The notes below the pieces were generated by a model. It did not search any database, had not been told where the DNA came from, and saw only the letters and a list, made by a program, of their open reading frames with translations. From Planctomycetota bacterium (GTDB lineage: Bacteria; Planctomycetota; Phycisphaerae; Sedimentisphaerales; Anaerobacaceae), in the NCBI GenBank assembly GCA_022566315.1, contig JADFJC010000005.1, positions 18,361-82,360 on the forward strand: DNA of 64,000 nucleotides, given 5' to 3'. A program made the position numbers and the translations under genes. This document shows, piece by piece, positions 27,333 through 61,523 of this stretch. How positions within the stretch are numbered: the stretch's first letter is position 1; every line of letters begins with the position of its first letter.

Positions 27333-27372
27333 TTAAGTCTTTATCAGTCTTTTCATTTTCCTTTCACAAAAT

Positions 27373-29680: not shown

Positions 29681-29819
29681 GCTTGTAAACATGACGTACA
29701 AGCTCATATATAGGCAGACTCCGTCCCCGTGGGTGTACAAAGATGAAACTGACACCTACGAGGCGCTCTTTACAACAAAGTTATCATGCTTTGATTTTGC
29801 CTAAACTTGTTTTTTATAA
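29537..29819. other. Gene-free spacer upstream of pseB
   Basis: No intact gene. The part next to pseB may contain a decayed cupin fragment (see next entry). No -24/-12 or clear -35/-10 promoter was found, nor a hairpin terminator after the FliT-like gene, so pseB may be transcribed by read-through from the flagellar genes. Confidence 0.5.
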
Positions 29820-30796: not shown

Positions 30797-32412
30797 TGCA
30801 ATTCTTTTCCTTCGAGTATTTGTTCCGCTTTTTCGAGTAATTTAATCGCCGAGTTAAAATCCTTTTCTTCGCGTTTGACCTTTGCCTCCAGCAGGAGTGT
30901 ATCCACCGTTGGCCGTTGACGGTTGACTTCACGGCTGAGTTCGGCTGCTCGAATGTGGCCGCCGGCTCTGAAAGATGCCTTTGCTGCTAACGTTTTCATC
31001 CACAGTTCGTTTTCATGATGCGCGGTGATATATTCAAACATTTCAGCAGCCTTTGACCAATTGCCGTTCTTTTCTGCTGACCTGGCTTTTTCAAGCAATT
31101 GGTCAAACTGAAACGGTATTTCTTCTGGTTGCAGCCGCCTTATCACAATGCCGGACGCATTCAGAGATTCACGCACCGATAAATTTGGAAACCTCCTCCG
31201 GGCATACTGTAAGTCATTTTTTCTGACCACTACCGCCCAGAGTCTATCTGTTGAATCTTCTAACTCAAATCCCTCGTTGTTGACGGAGCTGTTGACCAAA
31301 GCATGGAGCGAATCCTCTACCCAGAATTCTCTCATGGGAAATCCGCTTGGTACTATGGCAATATATTCACCCTCACATCTGGCTAAAGCTGCGTCTATTC
31401 GCTCGGCCCCAGAAAACAACGGATTAACGAGCACGGGGATTATGTTAGGCATATCGGTGTCAAGTTTTTCGAAATCCGCTGTCGGCAGTGGCATATAAAC
31501 CTCGTATGGATAGAAGGTACGCTGCCAGATAGAACCGAGGGTTGTGCCCGCCTGCTTGTTTAGCCTCTCTGTAATAAAAATGATGGACATATCTCCGAGT
31601 TTAGTCCAGGGTTTGGCGGGCCGGGTGGTTCGTATCGTTAGGATGTTCCTCGTATATTCCTTTTCCTTCTTGCGACACTGCACTGATATTCTGTCACAGT
31701 CACCGTCAGGCTGATAAAATTCACCGGTAATTTCAGGGACATGGTGAAAATCTGAGAAGAAAACCAACCGACGCGTCATATCCCAGTCTATTAAAACGTT
31801 GATGTCCTCGTTATATAAACCCGTTTTTTCAAGCAAATCCTTCCGATGCATAAGGCTTACGTGCAGGACATGATTATAGTACAACATAAAAAAGCGGTCG
31901 AAGTCCCTGCTGATTTCAACGACTTTGCTTAAAACCTTTCGGCTGCCGTCCGGGCAAACCTTACAATACACTTTATACAAATCACTGTATGCGACTTGGC
32001 AGTCGCTTTTGTTTTCAAGAGCATCGACCAGTGTTTCGATGTGATTAGGATAATATAGGTCATCGTCGTCAAGGTAGGCAACGTATTTGCCTTTGGCCCG
32101 AGATAATGCTTCATTAAGCGAATGGGCCTTGCCGCGATTCTCCTTTCTGTCGATAAACATTAACCGCTCGTCACCAAATGAATTAACTATATCGCTTACG
32201 TCTTCACCACCATCGTTTATTACGATTATCTGAAGATTTCGATAACTCTGGCGCACAACACTGGCCAGGGCCCCAGCTAAATATCGGCGCCGATTAAAAG
32301 TTGGAACAAGCACAGTAACGACCGGCCCGGCCTTTTTCTTAGACCACAAAGGCGCCTCATTGCTTTTTGGGGCACTCTCGTAGTTTTCTGACATTCCAGG
32401 AATATCTGACAT
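30787..32412 (-). CDS. GT2 glycosyltransferase with C-terminal TPR region
   Basis: A 541-aa protein. Residues about 30-270 are a GT2 domain: VVTVLVPTFNRRRYLAG, IIVINDGGED, GKAHSLNEALSRAKGKYVAY and the metal-binding LDDDDLYYPNH. A second, less conserved GT-like segment follows (residues 275-420), and residues 430-540 are TPR-like (ARSAEKNGNWSKAAEMFEYI, AKVKREEKDFNSAIKLLEKA). It follows the TPR-GT4 gene by 18 bases. Probable flagellin glycosyltransferase. Confidence 0.82.
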   Translation of the reverse strand: MSDIPGMSENYESAPKSNEAPLWSKKKAGPVVTVLVPTFNRRRYLAGALASVVRQSYRNLQIIVINDGGEDVSDIVNSFGDERLMFIDRKENRGKAHSLNEALSRAKGKYVAYLDDDDLYYPNHIETLVDALENKSDCQVAYSDLYKVYCKVCPDGSRKVLSKVVEISRDFDRFFMLYYNHVLHVSLMHRKDLLEKTGLYNEDINVLIDWDMTRRLVFFSDFHHVPEITGEFYQPDGDCDRISVQCRKKEKEYTRNILTIRTTRPAKPWTKLGDMSIIFITERLNKQAGTTLGSIWQRTFYPYEVYMPLPTADFEKLDTDMPNIIPVLVNPLFSGAERIDAALARCEGEYIAIVPSGFPMREFWVEDSLHALVNSSVNNEGFELEDSTDRLWAVVVRKNDLQYARRRFPNLSVRESLNASGIVIRRLQPEEIPFQFDQLLEKARSAEKNGNWSKAAEMFEYITAHHENELWMKTLAAKASFRAGGHIRAAELSREVNRQRPTVDTLLLEAKVKREEKDFNSAIKLLEKAEQILEGKELQWT

Positions 32413-32430
32413 TTTCTAAATAGCTAAAAA

Positions 32431-34008
32431 TTACACAGTCAAATTGCTCTTGAACTTCGGAACGGAAAATTCTGCCGGTAATCCAATATCTTCAAAACTC
32501 AATTTTTGCAAGTTATTGGAAAACGCGGGCACGACTTGGTGCGAATCTATCTCGCTTTCGAATTGGGTGAAAATGCTGTTGATTTCACTCAACTGTTTCT
32601 GTAACGGATAATTTTCTTCGACGAATCTGCGATACCCTTTGGGGTCATAAGTATCGGAAAGAATCTGCTCGCAGAATTCTTCCGAGATGTTAAATAAGAA
32701 CTCTGACGGAAATATCTCCTCTGCACCCGGGAAATTATGGATGACCGGCTTAAGACCGCAGGCCATTGCTTCTAAAAGTCCCATACCCTGGCTCTCAATG
32801 ATACTTGTCGAAACGATGTAATGTTTGTCCTCAAGCCAGGAACGGACATCTTCCTGCCAGCCGTCGAAGAACACCACATCGCGAAGCTCAAGAGCATCAA
32901 CCATATGCTTTAGGTATTGCTCAAGTGTTCTGTTCTGAAATATCCCCCCGAAGAACAGACGATACTCAGGGTCAATATAGTGCAGCTTTTGCAGGCACTG
33001 TAAAACGAAAGCGGGGTTCTTTACAGTTCTCAGATTGGACAAAAAAGCAATATTCTTGCCGTGCTGCCGCTCGGTAAAAGTAAATCTTTCAATATCTACG
33101 CCGCCGGGGATCGTAACTACCGATGTTTGACTTTCCAGGTTTGGAACCGTGTGGATAAGAGCATCTTTGACAAAGCTGTTGCCAACGGTAACAAGGATGT
33201 CGATATTAGCCCAGTTCATCTGCTCGGGCCATTGCGCATAGGCTTCGTAGCGGTGCAGTCTGACAATATTTTTGCAGACTTTCGGCTGCTTCGAGCCTAT
33301 TACTGCAAGATTTGTGCACCACTCGAACCACGAAATATCACTCCATTTCATTAATTCATACACTTCTTCTTCTGTTTGCTCTTCAAAAACGTGCACTTGA
33401 AAACGTTGCTCTGAAAATTTGATGATTTCATTGAGAAATCCCATACCATCACCACCACAGAAGAAAGCTATCTTAGGTCTTTTGCTGCGAATCACTTCAA
33501 GCATTGGCTTAAGAATCTCCTGGTTGGGCCAGCTTTGCAGTGAGCGGAGAAGTATTTCAATAGCGTTGGCCTTATTATTCTGCTCTAAGAATATATTGGC
33601 GGTTCTGTTTAGTACGTCCACATTCAATATGTCCATCTGCTCCATATTATCGAAAAGCTGCATAGCTTCGTTTGCTTTGCCGACAGCAAGATATGCTTCT
33701 ACAAGGTTCCACACTACTTCTGCGGAGTCCTCTTGGTGGCTCAGGGCTTTGACGAAATGCTCGATGGCTTCATCCGAACGGCCAAGGCAATGCAGAATTG
33801 CTCCTGTATCATTCAGCACTTGGGCGTTGCCGCTGGTCGTGCGAAGATATTCTTGCATACAGGCCAGAGATTCCTGGTACTTACCAGCTTCAGCTAATTC
33901 CAAACCTTTCTCGTAATAATTGGGCTTACAATACGCATTATTTTGCCTTTGCCCACTACTACTCTGCGAAGCACGAGCGGGCGGCTCCGGATTCATACTT
34001 ATTGCCAT
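32431..34008 (-). CDS. TPR-GT4 glycosyltransferase, probable flagellin glycosyltransferase
   Basis: A 525-aa protein with TPR repeats at residues about 30-165 (KGLELAEAGKYQESLACMQE, NDTGAILHCLGRSDEAIEHF) and a GT-B/GT4 domain at 180-490, including AFLSNLRTVKNPAFVL and the donor-binding ESQGMGLLEAMACGLKPV. TPR plus GT-B architecture is that of protein O-glycosyltransferases. The start ATG is preceded by AGGAG at about 9 bases. A sigma-54 promoter at 34070-34085 lies upstream, so this gene begins a glycosylation transcript coordinated with hook genes. Confidence 0.85.
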   Translation of the reverse strand: MAISMNPEPPARASQSSSGQRQNNAYCKPNYYEKGLELAEAGKYQESLACMQEYLRTTSGNAQVLNDTGAILHCLGRSDEAIEHFVKALSHQEDSAEVVWNLVEAYLAVGKANEAMQLFDNMEQMDILNVDVLNRTANIFLEQNNKANAIEILLRSLQSWPNQEILKPMLEVIRSKRPKIAFFCGGDGMGFLNEIIKFSEQRFQVHVFEEQTEEEVYELMKWSDISWFEWCTNLAVIGSKQPKVCKNIVRLHRYEAYAQWPEQMNWANIDILVTVGNSFVKDALIHTVPNLESQTSVVTIPGGVDIERFTFTERQHGKNIAFLSNLRTVKNPAFVLQCLQKLHYIDPEYRLFFGGIFQNRTLEQYLKHMVDALELRDVVFFDGWQEDVRSWLEDKHYIVSTSIIESQGMGLLEAMACGLKPVIHNFPGAEEIFPSEFLFNISEEFCEQILSDTYDPKGYRRFVEENYPLQKQLSEINSIFTQFESEIDSHQVVPAFSNNLQKLSFEDIGLPAEFSVPKFKSNLTV

Positions 34009-47344: not shown

Positions 47345-48868
47345 ATGACTTTACGTAGAATTATTGCACTCAGTAGAGACCCCGAAGTTCAACAACTGGC
47401 TCAGAAGTATGGTCAGGAAGTATTTGGGGCTGACGACCTGGCCGATGCTCTGGATATCGTTCAAACGGTCAAGCCGGATTTAATTCTTTTTGACCATCGG
47501 TTCGGTACGGGTCATATTCGTGAATTCCTCGATAGGGCCGATAAATATTCAACCAATGTTCCCATCGTGGTGGTTGGGGACGATGATGATAACATCGACC
47601 CAGCAACGCTGGGTTCCATACAAAACCCGCCGTTGGCGGGGTCCACAGAGTTTATGCAGGCGGGGGCCTATGACTATCTGAAGGGAAGGCAGGATTACGC
47701 CGGCTTCGAGCAAATTATAAGCAGGATAAAGAATGAATCCGTGTCTCGTGACCCGTGCCTTGTGACCCGAGCAACGAGCGACGAGCGACAAGCGACGGAA
47801 TCAAGTCGTTTCTTTGCTGAGGACCTGGCTTGCTCTGTCTCTATGGTCGGATGCAGTAAAGCGACCCTCGATACTCTCAAAATGATTAAACTTGTGGCTG
47901 CCAGTAGATGCAATCCGATTTTGATACTTGGAGAAACAGGCACAGGCAAAGAGCTGGCTGCTAAGGCGATACATATTTTAAGGCATCCGAACGGGCAATT
48001 TGTAGCTGTAAATTGTGCAGCTCTGACGGCAAATCTGTTGGAAAGCGAGCTTTTCGGTCACGTGAAAGGTTCTTTTACCGGCGCCGACCGTGAGAAAACA
48101 GGACTTTTGGAACTGGCTGAGTCCGGAACACTCTTGCTTGATGAAATAAGTGAGATGCCGTTGGACCTGCAGGCTAAGTTGCTGCGTGTCCTCCAGGAAA
48201 AATGCTTCCGAAAGGTCGGAGGTATCAAAAGTATCGCCTGCAACGCCACGATAATGGCTTCGAGCAATCGCAATCTCAAAAGTGAAGTTCAGGCCAATCG
48301 CTTTCGACGAGACCTTTATTACCGTCTGAATATTTGTCCTATTACTCTCGCTCCTCTTAGGTCACAAGGGCGAAAGCAAGACATCCGGCTATTAACTGAG
48401 TACTTTCTCAAGACCTCAACTATCTGTCCGGACAAGTGCGGTAAGATAACATCACTGACTGAATTAGCTATTGAGGTACTGGAGAAACACGATTGGCCCG
48501 GCAATGTTCGTGAGTTGTGTAACGTCATCGAAAGGGCCATCCTCCTGGAGACAACAGACAAAATCGGGTTAAACGCCATCTATATTGAGCCGACTGAATG
48601 GAATGAGGTATCGAACAGCACAACACCTGGACTCATCAAAGATTTCTCATTGGCAAAGGCTGAGTGCGAGTTGATTGCTCGGGCTTTGCAGAAAACAGGC
48701 TGGCAAAAGACCAGGGCTGCTGCTCTTCTCGGCATAACCAGAGCAACTCTTTACGCCAAGGTCAAGCAGTACAATATCGAAAAAGATCCATATATCGCAG
48801 ACGGCCCCGCAAAACAAGAACAAAACGAAGTTTCATCATCCTTGTCTCAGCCGGTAGTAGCTTCCTGA
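47345..48868 (+). CDS. Sigma-54 enhancer-binding regulator 1 (flagellar, NtrC/FlgR type)
   Basis: A 507-aa sigma-54 activator. Residues 1-125 form a receiver-like domain (IIALSRDPEVQ, LILFDHRF, AYDYLKG) with weak acidic pocket and a 17-residue insert encoded by palindromic element P1 (near residues 85-100). Residues 160-400 are the AAA+ domain: GETGTGKELAAKAIH, ESELFGHVKGSFTGADREK (GSFTGA instead of GAFTGA), LLDEISEMPL. The C-terminal Fis-type helix-turn-helix is KTRAAALLGITRATLYAKVK. Between receiver and AAA+ is a linker encoded by word-repeat DNA (ATSDERQATESS). Likely drives the three sigma-54 promoters. Confidence 0.9.
   Translation: MTLRRIIALSRDPEVQQLAQKYGQEVFGADDLADALDIVQTVKPDLILFDHRFGTGHIREFLDRADKYSTNVPIVVVGDDDDNIDPATLGSIQNPPLAGSTEFMQAGAYDYLKGRQDYAGFEQIISRIKNESVSRDPCLVTRATSDERQATESSRFFAEDLACSVSMVGCSKATLDTLKMIKLVAASRCNPILILGETGTGKELAAKAIHILRHPNGQFVAVNCAALTANLLESELFGHVKGSFTGADREKTGLLELAESGTLLLDEISEMPLDLQAKLLRVLQEKCFRKVGGIKSIACNATIMASSNRNLKSEVQANRFRRDLYYRLNICPITLAPLRSQGRKQDIRLLTEYFLKTSTICPDKCGKITSLTELAIEVLEKHDWPGNVRELCNVIERAILLETTDKIGLNAIYIEPTEWNEVSNSTTPGLIKDFSLAKAECELIARALQKTGWQKTRAAALLGITRATLYAKVKQYNIEKDPYIADGPAKQEQNEVSSSLSQPVVAS
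47597..47643. repeat. Palindromic element P1, copy B (inside activator 1)
   Basis: GACCCAGCAACGCTGGGTT, a spacer, and ACCCGCCGTTGGCGGGGTC: reverse complement of copy A at 43480-43525 apart from the spacer. In frame it encodes from DPATLGSI to PPLAGST within the receiver domain between strand 4 and the AYDYL motif. Confidence 0.92.
47741..47798. repeat. Word repeat (GAGCGACGAGCGACAAGCGAC) in activator 1 linker
   Basis: GTGACCCGTGCCTTGTGACCC followed by ACGAGCGACGAGCGACAAGC. The words repeat with 7-to-8-base spacing and give a charged linker. A related string (GAGACGAGAGACGAGCGACG) occupies the linker of activator 2. Confidence 0.8.
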
Positions 48869-49035: not shown

Positions 49036-49051
49036 TGGCACAGTTATTGCT
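49036..49051 (+). promoter_or_regulatory. Sigma-54 (-24/-12) promoter of the TPR-activator2-fliLMN operon
   Basis: TGGCACAGTTATTGCT matches the RpoN consensus with GG and GC exactly 10 bases apart. A start site near 49062 would lie shortly above the ORF. The promoter probably drives the plus-strand genes from the TPR protein into fliL-fliM-fliN-flhA. Confidence 0.87.
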
Positions 49052-49180: not shown

Positions 49181-51718
49181 ATGGCCACAGAAGAACAAAA
49201 AAATGTTCTCCAACAGGATATTTCCGAGGTGCCATCGGAAAGAGAATTATTTACAGGCGAAGTTCGAAGGGAACTCTCGGAGCGAGAAGTGTTTGTTGGA
49301 GACGAAGATTTTTACAAACTTTTGGCGGATTCCACGCCTGCTGATGCAGTTCAATCCGTCACCAGCCAGGCTGGTGCACGGACCAGCGCACGGCGCTCCC
49401 CGCGGGAGTCGATTCGGAATAAGCGTTTTTCGACCCTTCAAAAAGTCCTCATTACTGCCATTATTGTAATTGGTGCAATATTGCTGTATGTGCTGTTGGA
49501 ACCTTTGTTGCGGCCACTTAACAAAATTCCAACACCTGCCGCTCAACAAGCACATCCCTCTGAATTGCAGGTTGAAGATTCCACGCAGGCTGAAGGTTCC
49601 ACACAGGTGGTACAGGAACAAATCCAGGAGCCGGAGCCTTTGTTTCCACCAGCACAACCTCTGTCTTTGGAAGTTGCTCGGAACTTCTATCTGCAAAAGG
49701 ATTACGGTAAGGCTCATGCCGCTTATAACCAGCTTCATCAGAGTCTTCCAGCCGGTGCTAAAGAAGAGCTGCTGAGGGATTTTCTTCAGTTTAAAATGGC
49801 TTTGTGTTTGAGAAAGGCCGGCAATTCCGACCAGGCCGGCCGTTTATTCAGAACACTTTCACAAAGTCGTTCACTTGTCGTCAGAGTGGTTGCAAATTAC
49901 AACCTTAGTTTGCTTCAAGTCCAAAATAAGCAGTACCTCAAAGCGAGAACTAAAGCTTATCAGACGATTGCTTTGCTCAAAGCAGTGGATTTCGACAAGG
50001 ATTGGGCTTTGTCGTTGCAGCCTGATTGCCATTTCCTGGTTGCTGAGTCGATGACCAGAAATATCCTTTCGCTTTGCGATGCCGACACAGACCTTCCAGG
50101 CCGGTTGTGGAGTCACGATTTATCGGGATTCGATGTTGACCCTTTCATCAACTTAAACGATGCCCAATTGCGGGCCCTTTTGAATTCCGGCTCAAAGCAG
50201 TTAAAAGAAGGACTGCTCAGCCCTCGGATTCAGAAGCTCGAACATCAGGGTGTCCCGCCTCGTTGGTCTGTCGTTGCTTATGGGGCTTCGGTTGAAGAGC
50301 TGCTGGCAAGATTCGCTGCAAATGCCGGCCTTGATATTTCCTGGGTACACCACAAGACAACAGCCGCTGGACCAGCAGGGAATGCTATTCGCAAAAGGCC
50401 GGTGAGTTTGTATCTGCCGGCCGCAACCGCCCAGCAGGCAATCGAAGTGGCAGCCGGGCACGTGGGCTTAGTGGCACGTCTCGATGAAAATGGGCTTGTA
50501 AAAATTTCCAACCCGGCTGACTATTCATCATTATCAGAACACGTACATTTGCTTATACAGGACACTATTTCGCTTTGGAGAAAATTTCTACTTACATTCC
50601 ATAACGACCAGCGTATTCCAAACGCTCATTTTGCTCTGGGACTTTTGCACGCTCAGGAGAGCCAGATTATCAATGCTATTGCGGAGTACAAGTTAGTGGC
50701 CAATCACTTTTCACAAACATCTTTGGCGCCGTATGCACTGTTAAATTCGAGCAAACTCAAAGCTAATCTCCATGACTATTCCGGTGCACGAGAGGATTTG
50801 ACACAGCTTGTTGAGCAGTATCCTGATACCGAATTTTACGGCCAGGCATGTTTGAATCTTGCTGATGCAACAAGGAAAGCCGGGGTTTTGAATGGAGCTG
50901 AACGGCTCTATCGCAAAGTTTACAATCTTGGTTTGTCTTTGGAGATGCAGATTGCCTCTGCCCTCGGAGCAGGCAGATGTTCCTATCAGGCCCAGGACTA
51001 CGAAACTGCCGCCAAGTGGCTGACTCAATACCTCAATCTCGCCAAAGACCGCACAGATGCGGACTTCTACTTTGCCTACTTTCTCCTCGGCAAGACCAAC
51101 CTGGCATTAGGAAAGCCGCAGCAGGCTTCCCTTGCTTTTCAATACGCCCTAAGCGGACCGGCAGGGTGTCTTACCAGAGAAAGATATGTGGAGACAGTCT
51201 CAGCTTTAGTTGAGACACAGATACAACTGGAACATTTCGTCGAGGCTCTTGCATTATTAGAGGGTGTACACCCCTGGCAGTTCTCGAAGAAAGAATCTAT
51301 CGAGATATTACTACTCAAGGGCAGAGTTCTCCGTTTTATAGGTTTGTCCGATAAAGCTATTTCATTACTTGGTGACATTGCCGAATATCTGCCTGACTCT
51401 CAGTTGAAAACCAGGGTATCTTTTGAGTTAGTCAACTGCTATATCGCTAAAGGAGATTTGGAATTTGCCCACAAGAAGTTAGCGGAAATTCTTATTAGTG
51501 CTGCCCCCGGACCTTTGGCGCACGAAATGGCTCTCGAATTAGCTGAGGTTTGTTTGAAACTTGGTCAAAACTCTCAAACCGTCTCTGTTTGTTTGCAGCT
51601 TTTGGATTCGGCAGTATCAGCCCGGATAAAGCAAAAAGCCTTAAAGGTGCTGGCAGCCGCGTATAACCGGCAGAAAAAGTATGACGATGCAGCATTAGCT
51701 CTTTTGGGTCAATGGTAA
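49181..51718 (+). CDS. Membrane TPR protein with STN-like domain (flagellar, unknown)
   Basis: An 845-aa protein from the ATG at 49181 (MATEEQKN); the ORF track starts at 49073 and the N-terminal choice is uncertain. Residues 1-85 are polar and include a palindrome-encoded stretch (TSQAGARTSARRSP); one membrane segment follows (VLITAIIVIGAILLYVLLEP); then a proline/glutamine-rich region; TPR-type helices from about residue 170; an STN/secretin-N0-like beta domain at about 365-455 (ASVEELLARFAANAGLDIS, PVSLYLPAATAQQAIEVA); and a long run of TPRs to the C-terminus. Probably a periplasmic scaffold of the flagellar motor or a secretin-like complex; no known family recognised. Preceded by a sigma-54 promoter. 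Confidence 0.7.
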   Translation: MATEEQKNVLQQDISEVPSERELFTGEVRRELSEREVFVGDEDFYKLLADSTPADAVQSVTSQAGARTSARRSPRESIRNKRFSTLQKVLITAIIVIGAILLYVLLEPLLRPLNKIPTPAAQQAHPSELQVEDSTQAEGSTQVVQEQIQEPEPLFPPAQPLSLEVARNFYLQKDYGKAHAAYNQLHQSLPAGAKEELLRDFLQFKMALCLRKAGNSDQAGRLFRTLSQSRSLVVRVVANYNLSLLQVQNKQYLKARTKAYQTIALLKAVDFDKDWALSLQPDCHFLVAESMTRNILSLCDADTDLPGRLWSHDLSGFDVDPFINLNDAQLRALLNSGSKQLKEGLLSPRIQKLEHQGVPPRWSVVAYGASVEELLARFAANAGLDISWVHHKTTAAGPAGNAIRKRPVSLYLPAATAQQAIEVAAGHVGLVARLDENGLVKISNPADYSSLSEHVHLLIQDTISLWRKFLLTFHNDQRIPNAHFALGLLHAQESQIINAIAEYKLVANHFSQTSLAPYALLNSSKLKANLHDYSGAREDLTQLVEQYPDTEFYGQACLNLADATRKAGVLNGAERLYRKVYNLGLSLEMQIASALGAGRCSYQAQDYETAAKWLTQYLNLAKDRTDADFYFAYFLLGKTNLALGKPQQASLAFQYALSGPAGCLTRERYVETVSALVETQIQLEHFVEALALLEGVHPWQFSKKESIEILLLKGRVLRFIGLSDKAISLLGDIAEYLPDSQLKTRVSFELVNCYIAKGDLEFAHKKLAEILISAAPGPLAHEMALELAEVCLKLGQNSQTVSVCLQLLDSAVSARIKQKALKVLAAAYNRQKKYDDAALALLGQW
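49360..49408. repeat. Palindromic stretch inside the TPR gene
   Basis: CACCAGCCAGGCTGGTG (perfect palindrome around a central A), AGCGCACGGCGCT and CTCCCCGCGGGAG follow each other. It encodes an arginine/serine-rich segment just before the membrane helix. Likely another repeat element that entered a reading frame. Confidence 0.65.
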
Positions 51719-52500
51719 TGATAATGAAAAATAAGAAGTCTATCGGTTATTGGTTATTGGAATTCAGATGTCAGATTTTCTGTCTTCTGTTTTCTGTCTT
51801 CTGTTTTCTGACTTACTCTGCTGCTGCGGTTGGCCAAAAATCGCCGCAGAGCGCTTTTCTTGCTCCGCCGGACCCAAATAATAACTTCAGACGACAATTG
51901 TGGCGGGCTGAGCTTAGCATTGCTAAAGACGAAAAGGATAAAGGAACAAAAAATGAGCTTAAGCGAATAATCGAACAAATTCGCTCTATTAAATTTGAGT
52001 CCCGGAAGGAAATCTTTGAGCCTGTTATTGTCCCCGAGGCGGTGCTGATAGATGAGCCTAATGAAGCTGTATCCGAGACGAAAGAACAAGAGAAAAACCA
52101 AATCGAACCCAAACTGCAATACGAGCCGATAACCGGCAAAACTTTACAATTAATCAAGAACCTCTCGCAGCATCTTGACAATCTGCGCAACTCTTTTGAG
52201 CTGGGAGAGACCTTGTTTCTCAGCGGAAATCTAAAGGAAGCTGCAATATTTTACCGGGAAGCTCTTAAACGTAAAAGTCCGGATGACGTCGGCTCAGCTC
52301 AGGACAGAGACTGGATCTTATTTCAGATAGGCAACTGCCTGCGGAATGACGACCCGCCCACGGCAATAAAGACGTACGGACAAGTAATTATAGGGTACCC
52401 CAATTCGCCGTGGAAGGAATTAGCCGAAGCCCGGAGCAAATTGCTCGATTGGTACTTAACAGACAAACCACGTGAGTTAATTGCAGAACACAAACGGTAG
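51712..52500 (+). CDS. Periplasmic TPR-like protein with repeat-derived signal peptide
   Basis: A 262-codon protein overlapping the previous stop (starts possible at 51712, 51718 or 51724). The N-terminus IGYWLLEFRCQIFCLLFSVF CFL is a strongly hydrophobic signal-like segment encoded by word repeats (TATTGGTTATTGG and TCTGTCTTCTGTTTTCTG). The mature part is charged with a coiled-coil region (residues 65-110) and two or more TPR-type repeats (ELGETLFLSGNLKEAAIFYR, DRDWILFQIGNCLRNDDPP). It pairs with the preceding TPR protein; function unknown, perhaps a periplasmic partner. Confidence 0.6.
   Translation: MVMIMKNKKSIGYWLLEFRCQIFCLLFSVFCFLTYSAAAVGQKSPQSAFLAPPDPNNNFRRQLWRAELSIAKDEKDKGTKNELKRIIEQIRSIKFESRKEIFEPVIVPEAVLIDEPNEAVSETKEQEKNQIEPKLQYEPITGKTLQLIKNLSQHLDNLRNSFELGETLFLSGNLKEAAIFYREALKRKSPDDVGSAQDRDWILFQIGNCLRNDDPPTAIKTYGQVIIGYPNSPWKELAEARSKLLDWYLTDKPRELIAEHKR
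51740..51812. repeat. Word repeats that form a signal-peptide core
   Basis: GGTTATTGGTTATTGGAAT, then CAGATGTCAGATTTTCTGTC, then TCTTCTGTTTTCTG twice. The same words fill non-coding spacers elsewhere. Read in this frame they encode WLLEF and FCLLFSVFCFL. Confidence 0.85.
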
Positions 52501-52521: not shown

Positions 52522-54042
52522 GTGAGTAAGGCCGAAATAAACAACCTCAGCAATGGCAAACAAGAAGATATCGCGAATGTATTGATAGCTGATAACGACT
52601 CTGAGCTGGCTCGGTTTATGCTTGAGATATTGGCTCGCAAAGGAATACGCGGGCATCTTGCCAACGATAAAGACAGTGCGATTGACTTTATTAACAAAGG
52701 TAGTTGCGACCTTGTATTCACCGGTGACAGAATAAACCGGCGGGCAAACTTGTCCAGACGACCGCAGGATGGTTTTGAACTGCTTGAGAAAATCAAGGCG
52801 AATTGGCCGGAACTACCGGTGATTATGATAACAGAGGCTAAAAACCGAAGCCCGAAAAACCAGCAGCGAACTATTGAGACAGCAGTCAGGGCCGTTCGAC
52901 AGGGCTGTTGTGATTTCCTAATCAAGCCGCTCGACTGTGAAAAAATAGAGACACTGTTGGATACTTTCCTGCCTAACCACAGCGTCTCAACGATAGATTC
53001 GGCTTACGAGGACACCCGCTGCCTTTATAGGATTGTGGGCAGAAGTGCGAAACTCGTTCAAACCGTCGAATTGGCTAAAAGAATCGCTCCCACCTCAGCA
53101 CCGGTTTTAATAAGTGGTGAAAGTGGGACAGGCAAGGAGCTGCTCTCTTATCTTGTCCATCAAAAAAGCAAAAGAGCACATGCTTCGTATATCAAAATCA
53201 ATTGTGCTGCATTAAGTGATTCGCTCCTCGAAAGCGAGCTGTTCGGTCATGAAAAAGGTGCCTTCACCGGTGCCTACACTCAGCGCAAAGGCCGATTCGA
53301 AATGGCGCACGGTGGAACTTTGCTCCTGGATGAGATTGCTGAAACACCCATAAGGTTTCAGGCCAAGCTGTTGCGAGTGCTCGAACAGCAGGATTTTGAA
53401 CGGGTTGGCGGAAATGAAATTGTTAAAGTCGATGTTCGAATAGTAAGTACTACAAATAAGGATTTATTACAGGAAGTTCAGCAGGGACGGTTCCGTCAGG
53501 ACCTTTATTATCGGTTAAGCGGCGTAAGATTAGTGGCCTGTCCTCTCAGAGAACGCAAAGATGACTTATATGACCTCGTGTGGTATTTTGTCAACCTTTA
53601 CGCTCGCGAAGTACAGCGTCGTATCACTAAGCTTGATTCTGCCATGATGGACATTTTTGCCAAATACCACTGGCCCGGAAATGTCCGCCAATTGCGAAAT
53701 GTTGTACGAACTTCGCTGATTTTGGGAGTTGGACAGACACTGTCATTAGCTGATGTCTCCTGGCTCTTTGATGAATTACAACCACTTCCACAGGAGAGTC
53801 CGTCGTCAGTCGTCAGTCGCCTGTCATCCGTCGAACAAGAGACGAGAGACGAGCGACGAGAGACGAAAACAGACCTCGGAGGAGTATCGCTTGAACAGGT
53901 GGAAAGGCGAGCAATTTTGGATACTTTACGCCAGACAGGAGGCAACCAGACCAAGGCCGCAAAGGTCTTGGGCATCAGTGACCGAACGTTGCGCGATAGG
54001 ATACATCGCTATCGCAGACAGGGTTGCCTGCAGTTGGCATAG
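52522..54042 (+). CDS. Sigma-54 enhancer-binding regulator 2 (flagellar)
   Basis: A 506-aa NtrC-type protein starting at GTG (52522) with AAGGAG-like site upstream (GTAAGGA). A receiver-like domain at residues 1-130 (VLIADNDSELARFMLEIL) in which the usual phosphoacceptor position in LVFTGDRINRR reads Gly-Asp rather than Asp, so phosphorylation is doubtful. AAA+ domain at 165-400: GESGTGKELLSYLVH, ESELFGHEKGAFTGAYTQRK, LLDEIAETPIRFQAKLLRVL. The C-terminal HTH is QTKAAKVLGISDRTLRDRIH. The linker before it (VSRLSSVEQETRDERRETKT) comes from word repeats. Confidence 0.9.
   Translation: MSKAEINNLSNGKQEDIANVLIADNDSELARFMLEILARKGIRGHLANDKDSAIDFINKGSCDLVFTGDRINRRANLSRRPQDGFELLEKIKANWPELPVIMITEAKNRSPKNQQRTIETAVRAVRQGCCDFLIKPLDCEKIETLLDTFLPNHSVSTIDSAYEDTRCLYRIVGRSAKLVQTVELAKRIAPTSAPVLISGESGTGKELLSYLVHQKSKRAHASYIKINCAALSDSLLESELFGHEKGAFTGAYTQRKGRFEMAHGGTLLLDEIAETPIRFQAKLLRVLEQQDFERVGGNEIVKVDVRIVSTTNKDLLQEVQQGRFRQDLYYRLSGVRLVACPLRERKDDLYDLVWYFVNLYAREVQRRITKLDSAMMDIFAKYHWPGNVRQLRNVVRTSLILGVGQTLSLADVSWLFDELQPLPQESPSSVVSRLSSVEQETRDERRETKTDLGGVSLEQVERRAILDTLRQTGGNQTKAAKVLGISDRTLRDRIHRYRRQGCLQLA
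53801..53871. repeat. Word repeat (GTCGTCAGTCGTCAGTCG / GAGACGAGCGACGAGAGACG) in activator 2
   Basis: CGTCGTCAGTCGTCAGTCGC is followed by GAGACGAGAGACGAGCGACG. It is in frame and encodes the linker between the AAA+ domain and the DNA-binding domain. Similar words are in activator 1. Confidence 0.82.
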
Positions 54043-54044: not shown

Positions 54045-54097
54045 CCCCACACTTATGTGTGGGGAAATAGAAGGATACCACACATGTAAATGTGTGG
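54045..54097. repeat. Tandem hairpins between activator 2 and fliL
   Basis: CCCCACACTTATGTGTGGGG (8-bp stem, 4-base loop) and CCACACATGTAAATGTGTGG lie directly after the activator-2 stop codon. They might attenuate read-through into fliL, but no U-run follows either. Confidence 0.65.
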
Positions 54098-54116
54098 AGG
54101 AAAGGAAAGAAAGAAA

Positions 54117-54710
54117 ATGGCAGATGCAGATGAAACAAAACAGCCGGAAAAGCCGGAAAAACAAGAAGCCACAAAGTCCGAAGCGGGTGATAAGAAGTCT
54201 TTGATAGGTCGGCTCCTGCCGAAGATAATATTAGCTGTTGTATTGTTGGTTTTCGCCGGTGCCGGTTTCACTCTCGGTCGATTGTTTGCCGGCTCCGGCA
54301 CATCTCAAACGTCCGGTGCTTCCGAACAGGACCAGTCCGCTCAGGTAGAGAAGCTGGAAGCGAAGGGTTCGGCAGATGGTTCTCAAAAAAGCTGGTATTA
54401 TCATTTGGAGCCTGTTATAGCAAATCTCGATGTGGCCGACGTAACACGCTATGTTCGGGCCTCTTTAACACTTGAAGTAAGTTCCGAGGTGGATGAAAAG
54501 AAAGGCACTGCTTTTCTTGATGAGAAAAAACCCATCTTGAGAAACTGGCTTACTGTTTACCTGGCGAGTTTAGGTCTTGATGATATCAGAGGCGAAAGTA
54601 GCCTCAAGCGTATCCAGTCACAGGTACTCGATGCTTTTAACGAAAAGCTTTTTCCTGATTCCAAACCCAAAATCAAGCGCATTCTATTTAAGGAATTCGC
54701 AGTCCAATGA
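54117..54710 (+). CDS. fliL: Flagellar basal body-associated FliL
   Basis: FliL supports the stator-rotor interface at the inner membrane. From the ATG at 54117 (MADADETKQPEKPE, with AGGAAAGGAAAGAAAG upstream) the protein is 197 aa. A charged N-terminus is followed by one membrane segment (LLPKIILAVVLLVFAGAGF) and a periplasmic domain with YYHLEPVIANLDVADVTRYV, LTLEVSSEVDEK and a C-terminus KIKRILFKEFAVQ, typical of FliL. It overlaps fliM by 4 bases. Confidence 0.93.
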   Translation: MADADETKQPEKPEKQEATKSEAGDKKSLIGRLLPKIILAVVLLVFAGAGFTLGRLFAGSGTSQTSGASEQDQSAQVEKLEAKGSADGSQKSWYYHLEPVIANLDVADVTRYVRASLTLEVSSEVDEKKGTAFLDEKKPILRNWLTVYLASLGLDDIRGESSLKRIQSQVLDAFNEKLFPDSKPKIKRILFKEFAVQ

Positions 54711-55666
54711 GCAGAGCAGCTAACAATTTAAGCAAGGAAAAAATACAACAGCTCCTGATTGCCGTTGGGTCAGGCCCAATGGAAGATACTACAGGTATAG
54801 AGGCGACGGAGTACAATTGGAACAAGCCTCACTGTTTTGATCGCAAGCAGTTCAATAAACTCGACAATTTCACAAAAAAGGTAGCCAAAGCGATGACTGT
54901 AAAATTCGTTGACTTTTGCCACAGCCAGTTCGATGTCACAGTTGTTTCGACAAAGCAGCACTTTGCTACTAAGCTTGTTGACCAGGCTATGGAGAGCAGG
55001 CAGGATGATTATTATCTTGCTTTCGGCACCGACCAGGACCATCCCTGTGGACTCATTAGCATACCCATCAAAACGGCATTCATCTGGGCTACACAATTGC
55101 TCGGCGACCCTGAATCTGAAGAAAATTCAGGTAGAGATTTGTCGCAATTGGAAGAATCGCTTTTGTTGGACCTGCTCTCTGCCCTTATTGAGGCATTTTC
55201 TCAGAATATTGGGGACTTCCAGCCGGCAAAGAATATTATCCGAGGACTCTTTCCTCTCGAACTGAAAGGCACAGAAGAACTCTGTAAAATTACTCTTGAC
55301 GTCAAGAAAAAAAACCAGGAAAGCGGTTCTGAAGCTTACATCTTAGTACTATGCAGCAAGCTGGAATCTGTTGTGGGTAAAGCCGCTGAAACTGTTGGTG
55401 GCTTCTCAGCCGAGGATACCTCAAAAGCAATCCTTGGCCATATACAGCAAATGCCGGTGTGTATTACAGCCCAACTGGCTTCTACGGTGCTTACTCTTGA
55501 AGAGATAATGAGTCTTGAGGTGGGCGACATATTGTTACTTGATAAAAAGGTTAATGAATCGATCGAGTTGGTAGTTAGCGGTCAAACTGCTTTTCGCGGT
55601 CGGCCTGCAAAATCAGCGGGCAAGCACGCTGTGCTAATTACAGAACTGTCGTGTGATGCAGGGTAA
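54707..55666 (+). CDS. fliM: Flagellar motor switch protein FliM
   Basis: FliM is the C-ring component that binds CheY-P. The 319-aa protein has an N-terminal LSKEKIQQLL similar to the EIDALLSQ CheY-binding helix, the FliM middle domain (FDRKQFNKLDNFTKKVAKAM, VDFCHSQFDV) and a C-terminal SpoA-like domain (VCITAQLASTVLTLEEIMSL, VGDILLLDKKVNESIELVVS). It follows fliL directly. Confidence 0.93.
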   Translation: MSRAANNLSKEKIQQLLIAVGSGPMEDTTGIEATEYNWNKPHCFDRKQFNKLDNFTKKVAKAMTVKFVDFCHSQFDVTVVSTKQHFATKLVDQAMESRQDDYYLAFGTDQDHPCGLISIPIKTAFIWATQLLGDPESEENSGRDLSQLEESLLLDLLSALIEAFSQNIGDFQPAKNIIRGLFPLELKGTEELCKITLDVKKKNQESGSEAYILVLCSKLESVVGKAAETVGGFSAEDTSKAILGHIQQMPVCITAQLASTVLTLEEIMSLEVGDILLLDKKVNESIELVVSGQTAFRGRPAKSAGKHAVLITELSCDAG

Positions 55667-55746: not shown

Positions 55747-56127
55747 ATGGCAGAAACAACTGAAGCTGTGGAAGAAAAACAGGAAAGCGGTACGGCACAA
55801 GAAGACTCAAAGACACAGGCGCAATCTGCTGAATTTCCTGAAGTTAATGCAACCGACGACACAGGTGCCGGCGGTAGTATCGACCTCTTACTGGATGTGA
55901 ATATAGCTGTTACTGTTTCTATTGGACAAACAGAGATACCTGTCCGGCGGCTTTTACGGCTTGGACCTGGCTCAGTATTGGAACTCGATAAATCTATTGG
56001 TGAACCCGCAGACTTGTATCTCAGGGATACTCGGTTTGCCACGGGAAGCGTTGTGGTCGTGGACGGCCGGTTCGCCGTCAAAATAAAACAGATTCTTGGC
56101 CTTGGTGATGCTGCTGCCGAGGGATGA
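55747..56127 (+). CDS. fliN: Flagellar motor switch protein FliN
   Basis: The 126-aa FliN has an acidic N-terminal tail and a C-terminal SpoA domain: LDVNIAVTVSIGQTEIPVRR, LLRLGPGSVLELDKSIGEPA, TRFATGSVVVVDGRFAVKIK. FliN completes the C ring together with FliM. Its end overlaps the ORF-track start of flhA, but the preferred flhA start lies further down. Confidence 0.95.
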   Translation: MAETTEAVEEKQESGTAQEDSKTQAQSAEFPEVNATDDTGAGGSIDLLLDVNIAVTVSIGQTEIPVRRLLRLGPGSVLELDKSIGEPADLYLRDTRFATGSVVVVDGRFAVKIKQILGLGDAAAEG

Positions 56128-56146
56128 GATTGAGAAGAAAGGGACC

Positions 56147-56159
56147 CCCGCTTCGCGGG
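56147..56159. repeat. Short palindrome CCCGCTTCGCGGG before flhA
   Basis: CCCGC, TTC, GCGGG forms a compact hairpin just above the flhA start and inside its ribosome-binding region. It belongs to the same CCCGCTTTCGCGGG type as the larger element in the lipoprotein gene at 60804. Confidence 0.7.
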
Positions 56160-56170
56160 AAACAATTGTG

Positions 56171-58336
56171 ATGGCAGGTTCTGTACAATCAAATACATCA
56201 AAAGCACTGGAGTCAGACGCACTCAATACGCCTTTTGCGGCTTACAGCAATATTATTTTAGCTATTGGTCTGGTAACCGTTCTTGCAACACTTCTTATTC
56301 CTCTGCCAACAGCATTGTTGGATATACTTTTAGCCGGCAGCATCTCATTATCGGTGGCTGTTTTAATAATTACACTCACGTCAAAAGAGGCGCTCGAATT
56401 ATCCACCTTTCCTTCGCTGCTTCTTTTCGTAACACTGTATCGACTTTCTATTAATGTGGCCTCAACAAGATTGATACTCTTACAGGGCAACGCAGGGAAA
56501 ATTATACAGACCTTCGGAATGTTCGTTGCCGGTGGTAGTCTCGTTGTCGGACTGGTGATTTTCTTAATACTTGTCGTTATTCAATTCATAGTAATTACAA
56601 AAGGTGCCGGACGCGTAAGTGAAGTGGCTGCTCGTTTTACACTTGATGCTATGCCCGGAAAGCAGATGGCAATTGACGCAGACCTTAACGCAGGGACGAT
56701 TACAGAAAAACAGGCAAACGAACGAAGGGCTAAAATTGTCAGAGAAAGTGAATTCTACGGTGCTATGGATGGTGCCAGTAAATTCATTGTCGGAGATGCA
56801 AAAGCAGGGCTTATAATCACCGCTATTAACCTCATCGGAGGTATAGCTATGGGCTACTCACGCGGGATGACGATTGCCGGTGCCGTAAGGACTTATTCCA
56901 TTCTTTCAATTGGTGACGGACTTGTCAGCCAGATACCATCAATGATAATCTCCATAAGTGCGGGTTTTCTGGTAACTAAAATCTCCTCGAAACATAGCGT
57001 TGGCCAGGACCTTAGCATGCAGTTTCTTAAGACCAGCGAGCCACTGATAATAGCATCCTTCATCATTGCTTCGCTGGCCCTTGTGCCGGGCCTGCCTCCA
57101 ATACCATTTCTGTTGCTGGCGGCAGGTACCGCTTTGACCGGAAGAGCCGTGGCTAAGTCTGAAAAATCCCGTTCCGGAAAGCTCGAAGACTCGGGAGCTG
57201 CTCCGGCAAAAGCCGAGAAACAACCGGTTGAAGACTTGCTGGACATTGACAGAGTTTCTGTACAGGTCGGTGTGAGATTGATTACTATGGTGGACCCTCG
57301 CAAAGACAGTGCTATTTTCGATAGAATCGGTGCCTTGAGGAGAAAATTTGCTCAGGAGCTTGGCATCGTTATTCCTCTGGTTAGACTGCGGGATAATATC
57401 AACCTTGAACCCACTACTTATGTGATTAAGATTCTCGACCATATAGTAGCGAAGGGGCAATTAGAACCGAATATGTTCCTCGCAATGGATGCCGGTAATG
57501 TTCAGAAAAAAGTAGAGGGCATAGAAACCGCTGAACCTGTCTATGGATTGCCTGCTTTGTGGATTGCACCGGACGACAAAGAAAAGGCTGAACTAAACGG
57601 ATATACTGTAATCGACCCGGAATCCGTTTTCATTACTCATTTATCTGAAACGCTGAAAAAACACGCAGACGAATTATTGACTCGCGAAGACGTTCAGCTT
57701 CTTGTTGACCGGCTTCGAAAAACTCAGCCCTCTTTGGTCGGAGAGGTTGTTGGGGCCGATGGAGGAGTACCTATTGGACTGCTTCAGCGAGTGCTTAAGA
57801 ACCTTCTGACAGATGCAATACCGATCCGCGAGCTGACTGTCATACTTGAATCCTTGGGAGAGAACGCTTCAAAAACTAAAAACGCCGATGTTTTAACTGA
57901 GATGGTTCGTAAAGCCTTAAGCAGGACCATTACCGAGTTGTATAAGAACGAGGCTGGGAAAATTTTGGCCATAACATTGAACCCGGCGATCGAACATCAA
58001 ATGGTCTCAACCTTACGCCAGGAGGCCGATGGAATAAACCTCGCTTTATCCACCGAAATGGCAATGGATATAAGTAAAAAAAGTGCACAAGCCTGGAAGG
58101 CGGCAATGGACAAAGGCAGAGACAAGGTGGTTTTGTTATGTGATTCAAGGTTACGTTCACCACTGGCGGCAATGTTATCAAGAACAGTCGCACTCTTGCC
58201 GGTCATAGCTTATGACGAAATTGTGCTTGGAACCGAAGTAGAATCGATAGAAACAATATCCATCCAGCAAAATGAGATGACAGCACCCGAAGGACAAGGA
58301 CAGCTTACCCCTGCTTTAGCAGGGACGACAATGTGA
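56171..58336 (+). CDS. flhA: Flagellar export gate protein FlhA
   Basis: FlhA is the largest export gate subunit, forming the cytoplasmic docking ring. The 721-aa protein from the ATG at 56171 (MAGSVQSNTSK) has the eight-helix N-terminal part with PLPTALLDILLAGSISLSVA, the FHIPEP-like region ALELSTFPSLLLFVTLYRLS and AARFTLDAMPGKQMAIDADL, and the soluble C-terminal domain (VGVRLITMVDPRKDSAIFDR). The ORF-track extension upstream crosses a palindrome and fliN and is unlikely. C-terminal 12 codons contain CCCCTGCTTTAGCAGGGACG, a further palindrome-like stretch. Confidence 0.96.
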   Translation: MAGSVQSNTSKALESDALNTPFAAYSNIILAIGLVTVLATLLIPLPTALLDILLAGSISLSVAVLIITLTSKEALELSTFPSLLLFVTLYRLSINVASTRLILLQGNAGKIIQTFGMFVAGGSLVVGLVIFLILVVIQFIVITKGAGRVSEVAARFTLDAMPGKQMAIDADLNAGTITEKQANERRAKIVRESEFYGAMDGASKFIVGDAKAGLIITAINLIGGIAMGYSRGMTIAGAVRTYSILSIGDGLVSQIPSMIISISAGFLVTKISSKHSVGQDLSMQFLKTSEPLIIASFIIASLALVPGLPPIPFLLLAAGTALTGRAVAKSEKSRSGKLEDSGAAPAKAEKQPVEDLLDIDRVSVQVGVRLITMVDPRKDSAIFDRIGALRRKFAQELGIVIPLVRLRDNINLEPTTYVIKILDHIVAKGQLEPNMFLAMDAGNVQKKVEGIETAEPVYGLPALWIAPDDKEKAELNGYTVIDPESVFITHLSETLKKHADELLTREDVQLLVDRLRKTQPSLVGEVVGADGGVPIGLLQRVLKNLLTDAIPIRELTVILESLGENASKTKNADVLTEMVRKALSRTITELYKNEAGKILAITLNPAIEHQMVSTLRQEADGINLALSTEMAMDISKKSAQAWKAAMDKGRDKVVLLCDSRLRSPLAAMLSRTVALLPVIAYDEIVLGTEVESIETISIQQNEMTAPEGQGQLTPALAGTTM

Positions 58337-58435: not shown

Positions 58436-58681
58436 ATGCCGTTACACGTTAAGTCGATTGCAGTAAGCATTGCCGTGATATGTTTTTTCGGCTTGAGCCT
58501 AATCGGTTGGATTAGCGGCCTTTCGCCGTTTACCTGTTGCAAAAGGGCAATGGTCGGCGCCGTGCTTGCCTATATAGCAGGCACTTTGGTTCTAAAGGCG
58601 GTAAACGCTATTTTGATAAGTGCGATGATTACAAACCAGATGAATCAACAAAAGGAAAAGAATAGTGGCGCTAAAGACTGA
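58436..58681 (+). CDS. Small membrane protein of unknown function between flhA and fliA
   Basis: An 81-aa protein with two predicted membrane helices (SIAVSIAVICFFGLSLIGWI, and AMVGAVLAYIAGTLVLKAVN). The end overlaps the fliA start by 17 bases. No family recognised. Placement between flhA and fliA suggests a flagellar role, but this is inference. Confidence 0.6.
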   Translation: MPLHVKSIAVSIAVICFFGLSLIGWISGLSPFTCCKRAMVGAVLAYIAGTLVLKAVNAILISAMITNQMNQQKEKNSGAKD

Positions 58682-59519
58682 AAACATCTCTGAAGAGCAG
58701 CTCATTAGCGACACCAAAGCCGATTTATTGACTTTGGGAACACCTGAAGATAGCCGAAAGCATCTAAATACGGTTGCCCTGCGAGCATACTCAGGCCAGA
58801 AAAGATCCGACAAAGACGGAATCGAAGATGGGCGGATAGCCGAGCTTTTGCCTATGGTTCACGGGATAGTCAGGCAGGTCGTAACGTATCTAAGGCCTCC
58901 GTTATCATTTGAAGATATGGTCTCCGCAGGAGCTGTTGGATTGGTTAAAGCTGCACGCGATTTTGACCCGTCACACCATGCCGAGTTCAAAACCTATGCC
59001 TATATTAGAATCAAAGGGGCCGTTCTTGATGAGCTAAGAGGCTCATCTTTGCTGCCTGCAAATCTCAGCAAGCGGGTTCGCAGCGCCAGGCAGCTCAGCC
59101 GCAAGATTCTTGAGCAGACAGGCACAGCCCCTACCGATGCCGAATTAGCCGAAAAACTTGGAATAACTATTGATGAGCTTTTTGAAACATTCGGAAACGC
59201 TCGTGCACAGTATTTTGTCTCACTCGATGGCTTTGGAGAGGATGCGCCTGCACTGAGTAATCTTTTAGCCGCAGCTCATACAATCGCTCCGGATAAGCAA
59301 ATCGAACGGGCAGAGCTTATAGATAAGTTAGCCGAGGCGATACAACAGTTGTCCAAGAGGCAGAGGCAGCTCATCTTGCTTTATTACCAACAGCACCTGA
59401 CAATGAAGCAAATCGCTGAGATTTTCGAAATTACAGAATCGCGTGTCAGCCAGTTGCACGCAAGTGCTATATTTAACTTGTCGGTAAAATTGAGGCAATG
59501 GAAAGATGGCAGATTATGA
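58665..59519 (+). CDS. fliA: Flagellar sigma factor FliA (sigma-28/WhiG type)
   Basis: Sigma factor for late flagellar genes. The 284-aa protein begins at a GTG and contains region 2 (LRPPLSFEDMVSAGAVGLVK, DFDPSHHAEFKTYAYIRIKG), region 3 (DELRGSSLLPANLSKRVRSA) and region 4 (LSKRQRQLILLYYQQHLTMK, QIAEIFEITESRVSQLHASA), close to FliA/WhiG. It overlaps the small membrane protein upstream and the next gene downstream (14 bases). The likely anti-sigma partner FlgM is encoded 2.2 kb downstream. Confidence 0.96.
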   Translation: MALKTENISEEQLISDTKADLLTLGTPEDSRKHLNTVALRAYSGQKRSDKDGIEDGRIAELLPMVHGIVRQVVTYLRPPLSFEDMVSAGAVGLVKAARDFDPSHHAEFKTYAYIRIKGAVLDELRGSSLLPANLSKRVRSARQLSRKILEQTGTAPTDAELAEKLGITIDELFETFGNARAQYFVSLDGFGEDAPALSNLLAAAHTIAPDKQIERAELIDKLAEAIQQLSKRQRQLILLYYQQHLTMKQIAEIFEITESRVSQLHASAIFNLSVKLRQWKDGRL

Positions 59520-60130: not shown

Positions 60131-60145
60131 ATGGAGAAAAGTACA

Positions 60146-60724
60146 ATGAAAACTAACAAAAAAACAATCCTTATACTGATTTCATTAATGCCGATATTTT
60201 TGTTATCGAACTGTGTATCTGTCCAGGAACTGCCGAAGGTTGCCGCCCGATCCGACCCTGCTGAAATACAGCAGAGTGCTTCCGTAGCAAAAAGGTTCCA
60301 GGAATCTGCTTCACAGATACAGAACCCAACTGTCATAGAGTCCGCGATGGAATTGTCGAAAAAGCATGTCATACTTTCTGAAGAAGTGGCTGTACTACGG
60401 CAGGAAAACAAGGAACTTATTGTTCAAAAACAGCAGCTTAAAGACCAGGTCGTTGCTCTTGAGGCTCAATTACAGCAGACGCAAAAGGAATTAACCGAAG
60501 CAAATGACGTTTTGATTACAATGCGTATTGAGTTGAATAATTGGAAAGTCGATATCCTTGGTTTTCGTGATGAAATACGTAACGCCGAAACAGCCCAGCT
60601 GGAAGCTTTGCTTAAGATACTTAAAGTTCTTGGCGGAGAGGTCAGGACGAAATCGGCCAAGGGTGAGGACACAAGCTCGACCGCCGTCGCATCGTTAGGT
60701 AAAACCGACCAGTCTGAAAATTAG
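60146..60724 (+). CDS. Lipoprotein with coiled-coil, flagellar operon
   Basis: A 192-aa predicted lipoprotein: signal peptide TILILISLMPIFLLSNC with lipobox LSNC. Residues 60-150 form a coiled coil (EEVAVLRQENKELIVQKQQL, KDQVVALEAQLQQTQKELTE). The start at 60146 (MKTNKK) is preceded by GGAG at good spacing; the ORF track begins at 60131. It probably sits in the outer or inner membrane facing the periplasm near the motor (inference). Confidence 0.7.
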   Translation: MKTNKKTILILISLMPIFLLSNCVSVQELPKVAARSDPAEIQQSASVAKRFQESASQIQNPTVIESAMELSKKHVILSEEVAVLRQENKELIVQKQQLKDQVVALEAQLQQTQKELTEANDVLITMRIELNNWKVDILGFRDEIRNAETAQLEALLKILKVLGGEVRTKSAKGEDTSSTAVASLGKTDQSEN

Positions 60725-60749
60725 AAAACACTGACATTAGGTGAATCGA

Positions 60750-61523
60750 ATGAATAGCTCAAGAACGGTGTTATCATATCTGGTAGCTCGTTGCTCATCG
60801 CTTCCCCGCTTTCGCGGGGACAATTCCTGCTTTCGAAGGAATGACGTCACCCCCGCGAAAGCGGGGGGTGCCCCTGCAGAAGCACGGGCTTGTAGTTTGA
60901 GTTACATCTCACGAGTCGCAATATTGTTATTGCCGGCAGCTCTTTTATCAGGCTGCATTACTTATTATAGAGCTTCGGCTCCGGCAGCCAACTACTATTA
61001 TCTGAATCCGAATAAGAGCTTAACTACGGTTGGAAGGGTTGCTATTGTTGAGTTGGACAACGATTCGAGTTATCCCAAAATCTCCGCTGATGTAACCGAA
61101 AAACTTTATCAGTCATTGCAGAAGAAGCAGATTTTCGGTTTAACTATTGTCCGTCAGAATGACACTTCGTGGCGAAGCTTGCAGTTGGAACTGGACTCGA
61201 AATATGCCCTTGAACAGTTATTGGCAATCCGTGAGACGTTAAAGTGCGATGCGGTATTGCTCGGAACCATTACTGAATTCAGACCTTATCCTCATATGAT
61301 TATTGGACTTCGCTTGAAGCTTATTGACCTCAGAGATGGACAGTTGTTATGGGCACTTGAGCAGATTTGGGACAGCGCCGATAAAACAACCGAGTATCGC
61401 ATAAAAGACTATTTTCACTCACAAAAGCGCTCGGGTTATGCGCCTTTGTATGAACAGTTAGCGGCTGTCAGCTCGCTTGAATTTATAAAGTTTGTAAGTT
61501 ATGAGGTGGCTGAAACGCTATAG
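60750..61523 (+). CDS. Lipoprotein with element-extended N-terminus
   Basis: A 257-aa lipoprotein. The lipobox is in AILLLPAALLSGCITYY at about residue 70, but 50 residues before it are translated from a palindromic repeat (SSLPRFRGDNSCFRRN, TPAKAGGAP), so the functional start may be lower. After the Cys the protein has a beta-alpha pattern (VGRVAIVELDNDSSYPKISA, LKCDAVLLGTITEFRPYPHM) reminiscent of GNA1162/CsgG-like assembly lipoproteins. It follows the previous lipoprotein and is near flgM; function unknown. Confidence 0.65.
   Translation: MNSSRTVLSYLVARCSSLPRFRGDNSCFRRNDVTPAKAGGAPAEARACSLSYISRVAILLLPAALLSGCITYYRASAPAANYYYLNPNKSLTTVGRVAIVELDNDSSYPKISADVTEKLYQSLQKKQIFGLTIVRQNDTSWRSLQLELDSKYALEQLLAIRETLKCDAVLLGTITEFRPYPHMIIGLRLKLIDLRDGQLLWALEQIWDSADKTTEYRIKDYFHSQKRSGYAPLYEQLAAVSSLEFIKFVSYEVAETL
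60804..60868. repeat. Palindromic element P3 inside a lipoprotein gene
   Basis: CCCCGCTTTCGCGGGG, ATTCCTGCTTTCGAAGGAAT, GACGTCACC and CCCCGCGAAAGCGGGGG are stacked hairpins. It is in frame in the leader region of the lipoprotein and encodes about 20 residues. The same core appears reduced before flhA (56147-56159). Confidence 0.88.

Follow-up and report, generated by a model that had tools for sequence, protein, structure and literature searches.

A membrane-anchored N0/STN-TPR protein and its secreted TPR partner are linked to one of two planctomycete flagellar types

Results

An overlapping gene pair opens a sigma-54 operon of flagellar genes

The window analyzed here is a 64,000-nucleotide stretch of a planctomycete contig (JADFJC010000005.1; Sedimentisphaerales). 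On its forward strand lie two open, overlapping reading frames (overlap 51712-51718), P1 followed by P2. P1 (49181-51718) encodes a membrane-anchored N0/STN-TPR protein of 845 amino acids with full-length relatives, and P2 (51712-52500) encodes a secreted small TPR protein of 262 amino acids. An alternative upstream ATG for P1 is present at 49073; however, the nearest named relative, L034 (90% identity; the named relatives are Phycisphaerae/Sedimentisphaerales MAGs), has a frame that ends 15 codons 5' of the ATG equivalent to 49181, which makes 49181 the better start.

The operon runs in the order P1-P2-NtrC-fliL-fliM-fliN-flhA, all on the forward strand: an NtrC-type sigma-54 activator (52522-54042), FliL (54090-54710; PF03748, E = 1.3e-15), FliM (54707-55666), FliN (55747-56127), and FlhA (56096-58336; PF00771, E = 8.9e-237). 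A sigma factor of the FliA/WhiG type follows on the same strand (58665-59519), with matches to sigma-70 regions 2, 3, and 4; its context suggests the FliA type. A second NtrC-type activator (47345-48868, forward strand) adjoins P1 upstream, a placement shared by many relatives, such that activators of this type lie on both sides of the pair. Between this gene and P1 is a sigma-54 (-24/-12) promoter (TGGCAC-N5-TTGCT; TGGCACAGTTATTGCT; 49036-49051, forward strand) that matches the consensus perfectly. All 48 relatives with sufficient upstream sequence carry an equivalent site 36 to 195 bases 5' of the P1 start, while 0.6% of shuffled sequences score comparably. The original prediction, that an overlapping TPR gene pair starts a sigma-54 operon continuing into fliLMN and flhA, agrees with these data on each point.

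Immediately upstream of the window, the same contig encodes flgB-flgC-fliE-fliF-fliG-fliG-fliH-fliI-fliJ-flgY-motA-motB-motB. The flgY/MotE-like open reading frame between fliJ and motA was recognized by its resemblance to a FlgY-like open reading frame in family f16, and such a gene in the flagellar cluster is a feature of E-ring type motors (FlgY/MotE). In the coordinates of this region (L098), the two tandem fliG genes lie at 10393-12577 (396 and 330 amino acids) and the two consecutive motB-like genes at 16749-18214. Downstream of the flagellar sigma factor, two conserved genes (60131-61523) encode a coiled-coil protein and a lipobox-bearing protein; neither has a confident Pfam family, and their position is kept in several families. 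A glycosylation cluster adjoins the flagellar genes on the reverse strand (6540-13292 and 17010-33000). It encodes NeuB, a cytidylyltransferase, PIG-L, formyltransferases, radical SAM proteins, and a 2,250-amino-acid protein that combines several glycosyltransferase domains with B12-binding/radical SAM domains and TPRs.

P1 interposes an N0/STN domain between two predicted periplasmic repeat blocks

An AlphaFold2 model of P1 (42 sequences; mean pLDDT of 84) begins with a disordered cytoplasmic tail (residues 1 to 84; 49181-49432). The tail carries a tandem motif, [DE]hF[AGSTV], at residues 22 and 36, which together span residues 22 to 39 (49244-49297). At least two copies occur in 27 of 42 relatives, mostly 14 residues apart, compared with 0.035 expected by shuffling; a motor component or a regulator in the cytoplasm may dock at the motif. 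A single transmembrane helix follows (residues 85 to 110; 49433-49510), and a hydrophobic stretch N-terminal to the TPRs exceeds the hydropathy threshold of 1.6 in 42/42 aligned relatives. A disordered linker then extends to about residue 160. The predicted periplasmic portion consists of a first helical/TPR-like block (residues 163 to 345; 49667-50215), an N0/STN domain (residues 349 to 443; 50225-50509), and a main TPR superhelix (residues 451 to 841; 50531-51703) that is supported by both Pfam TPR matches and the model and contributes to a count of about 12 TPRs in P1. A PDB sequence search with the N-terminal block returned no matches.

Identification of the N0/STN domain depended on homologues because Pfam searches of the window's own proteins, both an hmmscan of P1 and an STN search across its genome, did not recover it. 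In the model, residues 361 to 443 adopt a beta-alpha-beta-beta-alpha-beta-beta topology. Of 26 homologues of this region drawn from the whole phylum, 7 match Pfam STN (best E value, 4.2e-6) and 4 match GspD N0, and a profile of the phylum-wide region places PilQ N0 structures at the top of a PDB search (4ar0, E = 6e-5). The window-type domain aligns with the profile of the split homologues described below at the expected place (hhalign probability, 81%; E = 1.2e-5); a profile built from window-type proteins alone gives an insignificant N0 match in the PDB (EscC, E = 1.5). Together, these results establish the domain as N0 type, most like that of PilQ.

The model of P2 (pLDDT of 78.5) comprises a hydrophobic N terminus, with a signal/hydrophobic segment at residues 12 to 38, a low-confidence middle region, and a small C-terminal TPR domain; the protein is all-helical, with about three TPRs and no beta domain. 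At 52 of 53 loci, P1 is followed by a P2 homologue, and the single exception is near a contig end. The single membrane helix, the STN/N0 domain, and the many TPRs that had been read from the P1 sequence are all borne out, as is the description of P2 as a secreted TPR-like protein.

The gene pair co-occurs with flhA and lies in flagellar loci across the phylum

We searched the 118 genomes of the window's order for P1 (E < 1e-30) and found it in 76, always as a single copy. Seventy-five of these also carry flhA, one has P1 only, 17 have flhA only, and 25 have neither. Thirteen of the 17 genomes with flhA only belong to family f5, and the other 4 are 70 to 83% complete; a gene scored as absent from an incomplete genome is a tentative call. 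The association is significant whether f5 is included (Fisher P = 2e-13) or excluded (P = 6e-19), although these values overstate independence because the genomes are related. Where both genes are on the same contig within the order, flhA lies approximately 6 to 8 kb downstream of P1.

Families f16 and f17 of the same class have P1 and P2 as well. The f16 genomes that we inspected carry one long cluster (P1-P2-NtrC-flgB-flgC-fliE-fliF-fliG-fliH-fliI-fliJ-flgY-motA-motB-motB-fliL-fliM-fliN), with flhA farther downstream. Families f67 and f86 encode P1 in split form: a TM-TPR gene (about 300 to 350 amino acids) precedes an adjacent signal peptide-N0-TPR gene (about 600 amino acids), and a P2-like gene is next. 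The second of the split genes is homologous to P1 residues 345 to 845 (hhalign probability, 100%; E = 4e-40). Within f67, flhA is present in all nine genomes that carry the N0-TPR gene, and the six without it have no real flhA. We also looked at the HZS_alpha domain as an anammox marker for f67, but this domain occurs 10 times in the window's own genome and is therefore not decisive.

In planctomycete families with the split module, P2 and then flgBC-fliEFG lie downstream. With a broader profile, we identified relatives that span the N0 domain in another 13 genomes, all of which carry flhA, and some of the families found in this way again have the fused form of P1. At the loci inspected from about ten additional families, the N0-TPR gene belongs to flagellar clusters, mostly immediately 5' of flgB-flgC-fliE-fliF-fliG and otherwise next to other flagellar genes; at one locus (L090), it is directly 3' of motA-motB. 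The flagellar association first proposed for the pair thus extends to flagellar loci far beyond the window, and on the strength of this comparative genomics, we regard P1 and P2 as linked to the flagellum.

The gene pair follows one of two flagellar types

A quick tree of 69 FlhA proteins (SH-aLRT support; one row, L086, is long) divides into two halves with an SH-aLRT value of 100. One half contains all 39 systems that carry the candidate scaffold genes (23 with fused P1 and 16 with the N0-TPR gene), and the other contains all 21 systems tested as free of them, plus seven of untested status; the two groups separate with one change on the tree. When 15 flagellated genomes from the class that lack P1 were searched directly, no N0-spanning match was among the matches listed. 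In f16 genomes with two flhA genes, the P1-linked copy falls in the first half and the second copy in the other. Together, the tree and the split placement of the two f16 copies indicate that the genes track flagellar type rather than the species tree, and we conclude from these phylogenetic data that the pair is tied to one of two planctomycete flagellar types. Separately, several f16 genomes (L117, L118, and L133) have an additional, divergent flhA that belongs to the other type, which points to two flagellar or export systems in these organisms.

This result also bears on the original prediction, which held that absence of the pair from flagellated relatives would count against a flagellar role. 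The prediction stands with one qualification: the pair is absent from some flagellated relatives, namely f5 of the same order and most other families of the class, but the flhA tree assigns these to the other flagellar type.

Discussion

A probable periplasmic motor scaffold and its alternatives

The layout of P1 matches that of PflB at nearly equal length, and the split form looks like a PflB-like gene beside a PflA-like gene; from these resemblances, we infer that P1 and P2 are probably dedicated flagellar motor parts that form an inner-membrane-anchored periplasmic scaffold analogous to PflA/PflB of Campylobacter. The tail of P1 would lie on the cytoplasmic side, with its single helix passing through the inner membrane and the long TPR superhelix, interrupted by the PilQ-type N0 domain, extending across the periplasm. 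Secreted P2 would bind P1, and together they would connect the FlgY E-ring with the FliL/MotB stator ring and keep the stators in place. This position in the motor, the mutual binding, and the effect on stators are inferred from architecture and gene context. Foldseek places Campylobacter scaffold chains 9hmf_K and 9hmf_L as the best bacterial matches of P1, at TM-scores of 0.20 to 0.26, with eukaryotic TPR proteins equal or higher; because TPR proteins resemble one another, this result supports the analogy weakly, and 9hmf was not among the matches listed in our PDB profile searches.

The NtrC and histidine kinase genes that flank the pair also fit a regulatory role and to that extent count against a scaffold. 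In the main rival explanation, P1 would be an assembly sensor that uses its N0 domain and TPRs to read completion of the basal body or rod in the periplasm. The signal would pass by way of the transmembrane helix and the conserved tail motif to the neighboring histidine kinase/NtrC pair, which activates sigma-54 hook genes. STN domains signal in TonB transducers, the cytoplasmic tandem motif is kept within the order, and in several families a PAS-histidine kinase gene accompanies the NtrC genes that flank P1/P2. Nevertheless, the N0-TPR gene product is wholly periplasmic in many families and the long TPR superhelix appears structural, and we consider a sensor unlikely. Apparent TPR-histidine kinase fusions in L085, L087, and L089 proved to be overextended out-of-frame open reading frames in high-GC DNA and hence lend no support to this idea.

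Somewhat less probable still is a role in envelope accommodation, in which the TPR pair would resemble YbgF/CpoB and coordinate peptidoglycan or outer membrane remodeling around the flagellum without being part of the motor. Tol-pal YbgF is the best NCBIfam similarity, below the cutoff, and the YbgF TPR is the best fold match of P2; however, such TPR matches are generic, there is no peptidoglycan-binding or hydrolase domain, and the genes are strictly linked to fliF/fliG/flhA operons rather than to tol-pal genes. The channel that was originally offered as another option, or a secretin-like export pore, is very improbable: an N0/STN domain is typical of secretins, but neither P1 and P2 nor the split homologues gave a match to an N1/N2/N3, secretin, or beta-barrel domain, and the rest of the sequence is TPR.

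Extending the motor scaffold reading to the phylum, we tentatively suggest that one planctomycete flagellar type has a three-module scaffold (TM-TPR, PilQ-N0-TPR, and small secreted TPR), fused into two genes in Sedimentisphaerales, in which the N0 domains might form a periplasmic ring around the rod and stators; this possibility falls somewhat short of an even chance. If it is true, a type IV pilus secretin domain would have been independently recruited into a flagellar motor.

Comparison with known systems

We found no descriptions of planctomycete flagellar motor accessories in the literature. In published surveys, TPR scaffolds outside Campylobacterota are hard to spot by sequence, and single-copy ones are described as PflA-like and lacking a TM; the spirochaete proteins FlcA/FlcB are treated as PflAB homologues by structure (PMC11870540). 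P1 has a PflB-like architecture that includes a TM, its sequence signature can be followed across the phylum, and it is tied to one flagellar type. The system opens to testing both how motor scaffolds arose and how they came to borrow PilQ domains. The spirochaete collar had been offered as an example; the closest analogue is instead the Campylobacter PflA/PflB scaffold.

With PilQ/GspD secretins and the STN of TonB receptors, P1 shares the N0/STN domain. It differs from them in having no Pfam match to a secretin pore or barrel and in the placement of its N0 domain between TPR blocks.

PflA, which forms the spokes of Campylobacter/Helicobacter motors, consists of a signal peptide, a beta domain, and TPRs (PMC12222027). 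The split planctomycete form likewise combines a signal peptide, a beta domain, and a TPR array beside flagellar genes, as in PflA and MotK (group PflA, MotC/MotK/CC_2058, and FlcB). In PflA-type proteins, the beta domain is an AMIN-type beta-sandwich, whereas the planctomycete counterpart is a PilQ-type N0 that takes its place, and in the window the N0 module is fused to the membrane-anchored half. P2 itself is unlike PflA, which has a signal peptide, a beta-sandwich, and about 16 TPRs: it has 262 amino acids, is all-helical, and carries about three TPRs.

We know of no described counterpart of the order-specific tandem tail motif of P1. PflB forms the rim of the proximal disk, and with PflA, it serves in FliL recruitment and stator retention (PMC12222027); the E-ring protein FlgY lies beneath the PflA/PflB scaffold (PMC13023049). 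Helicobacter pylori PflB has a 61-residue tail, one TM, a disordered linker, and TPRs to residue 844 (PMC11392913), and P1 shares the tail, the single TM, the linker, and the long periplasmic TPR superhelix at almost equal length. The hallmark of PflB is a TM together with a beta element (a beta pair) mid-protein (PMC11870540); in both proteins, this element lies inside the TPR array, where P1 has a larger, complete N0/STN domain. Both systems are flagellar, with FliL and FlgY encoded in the genome, and the analogy between P1 and PflB is one of architecture.
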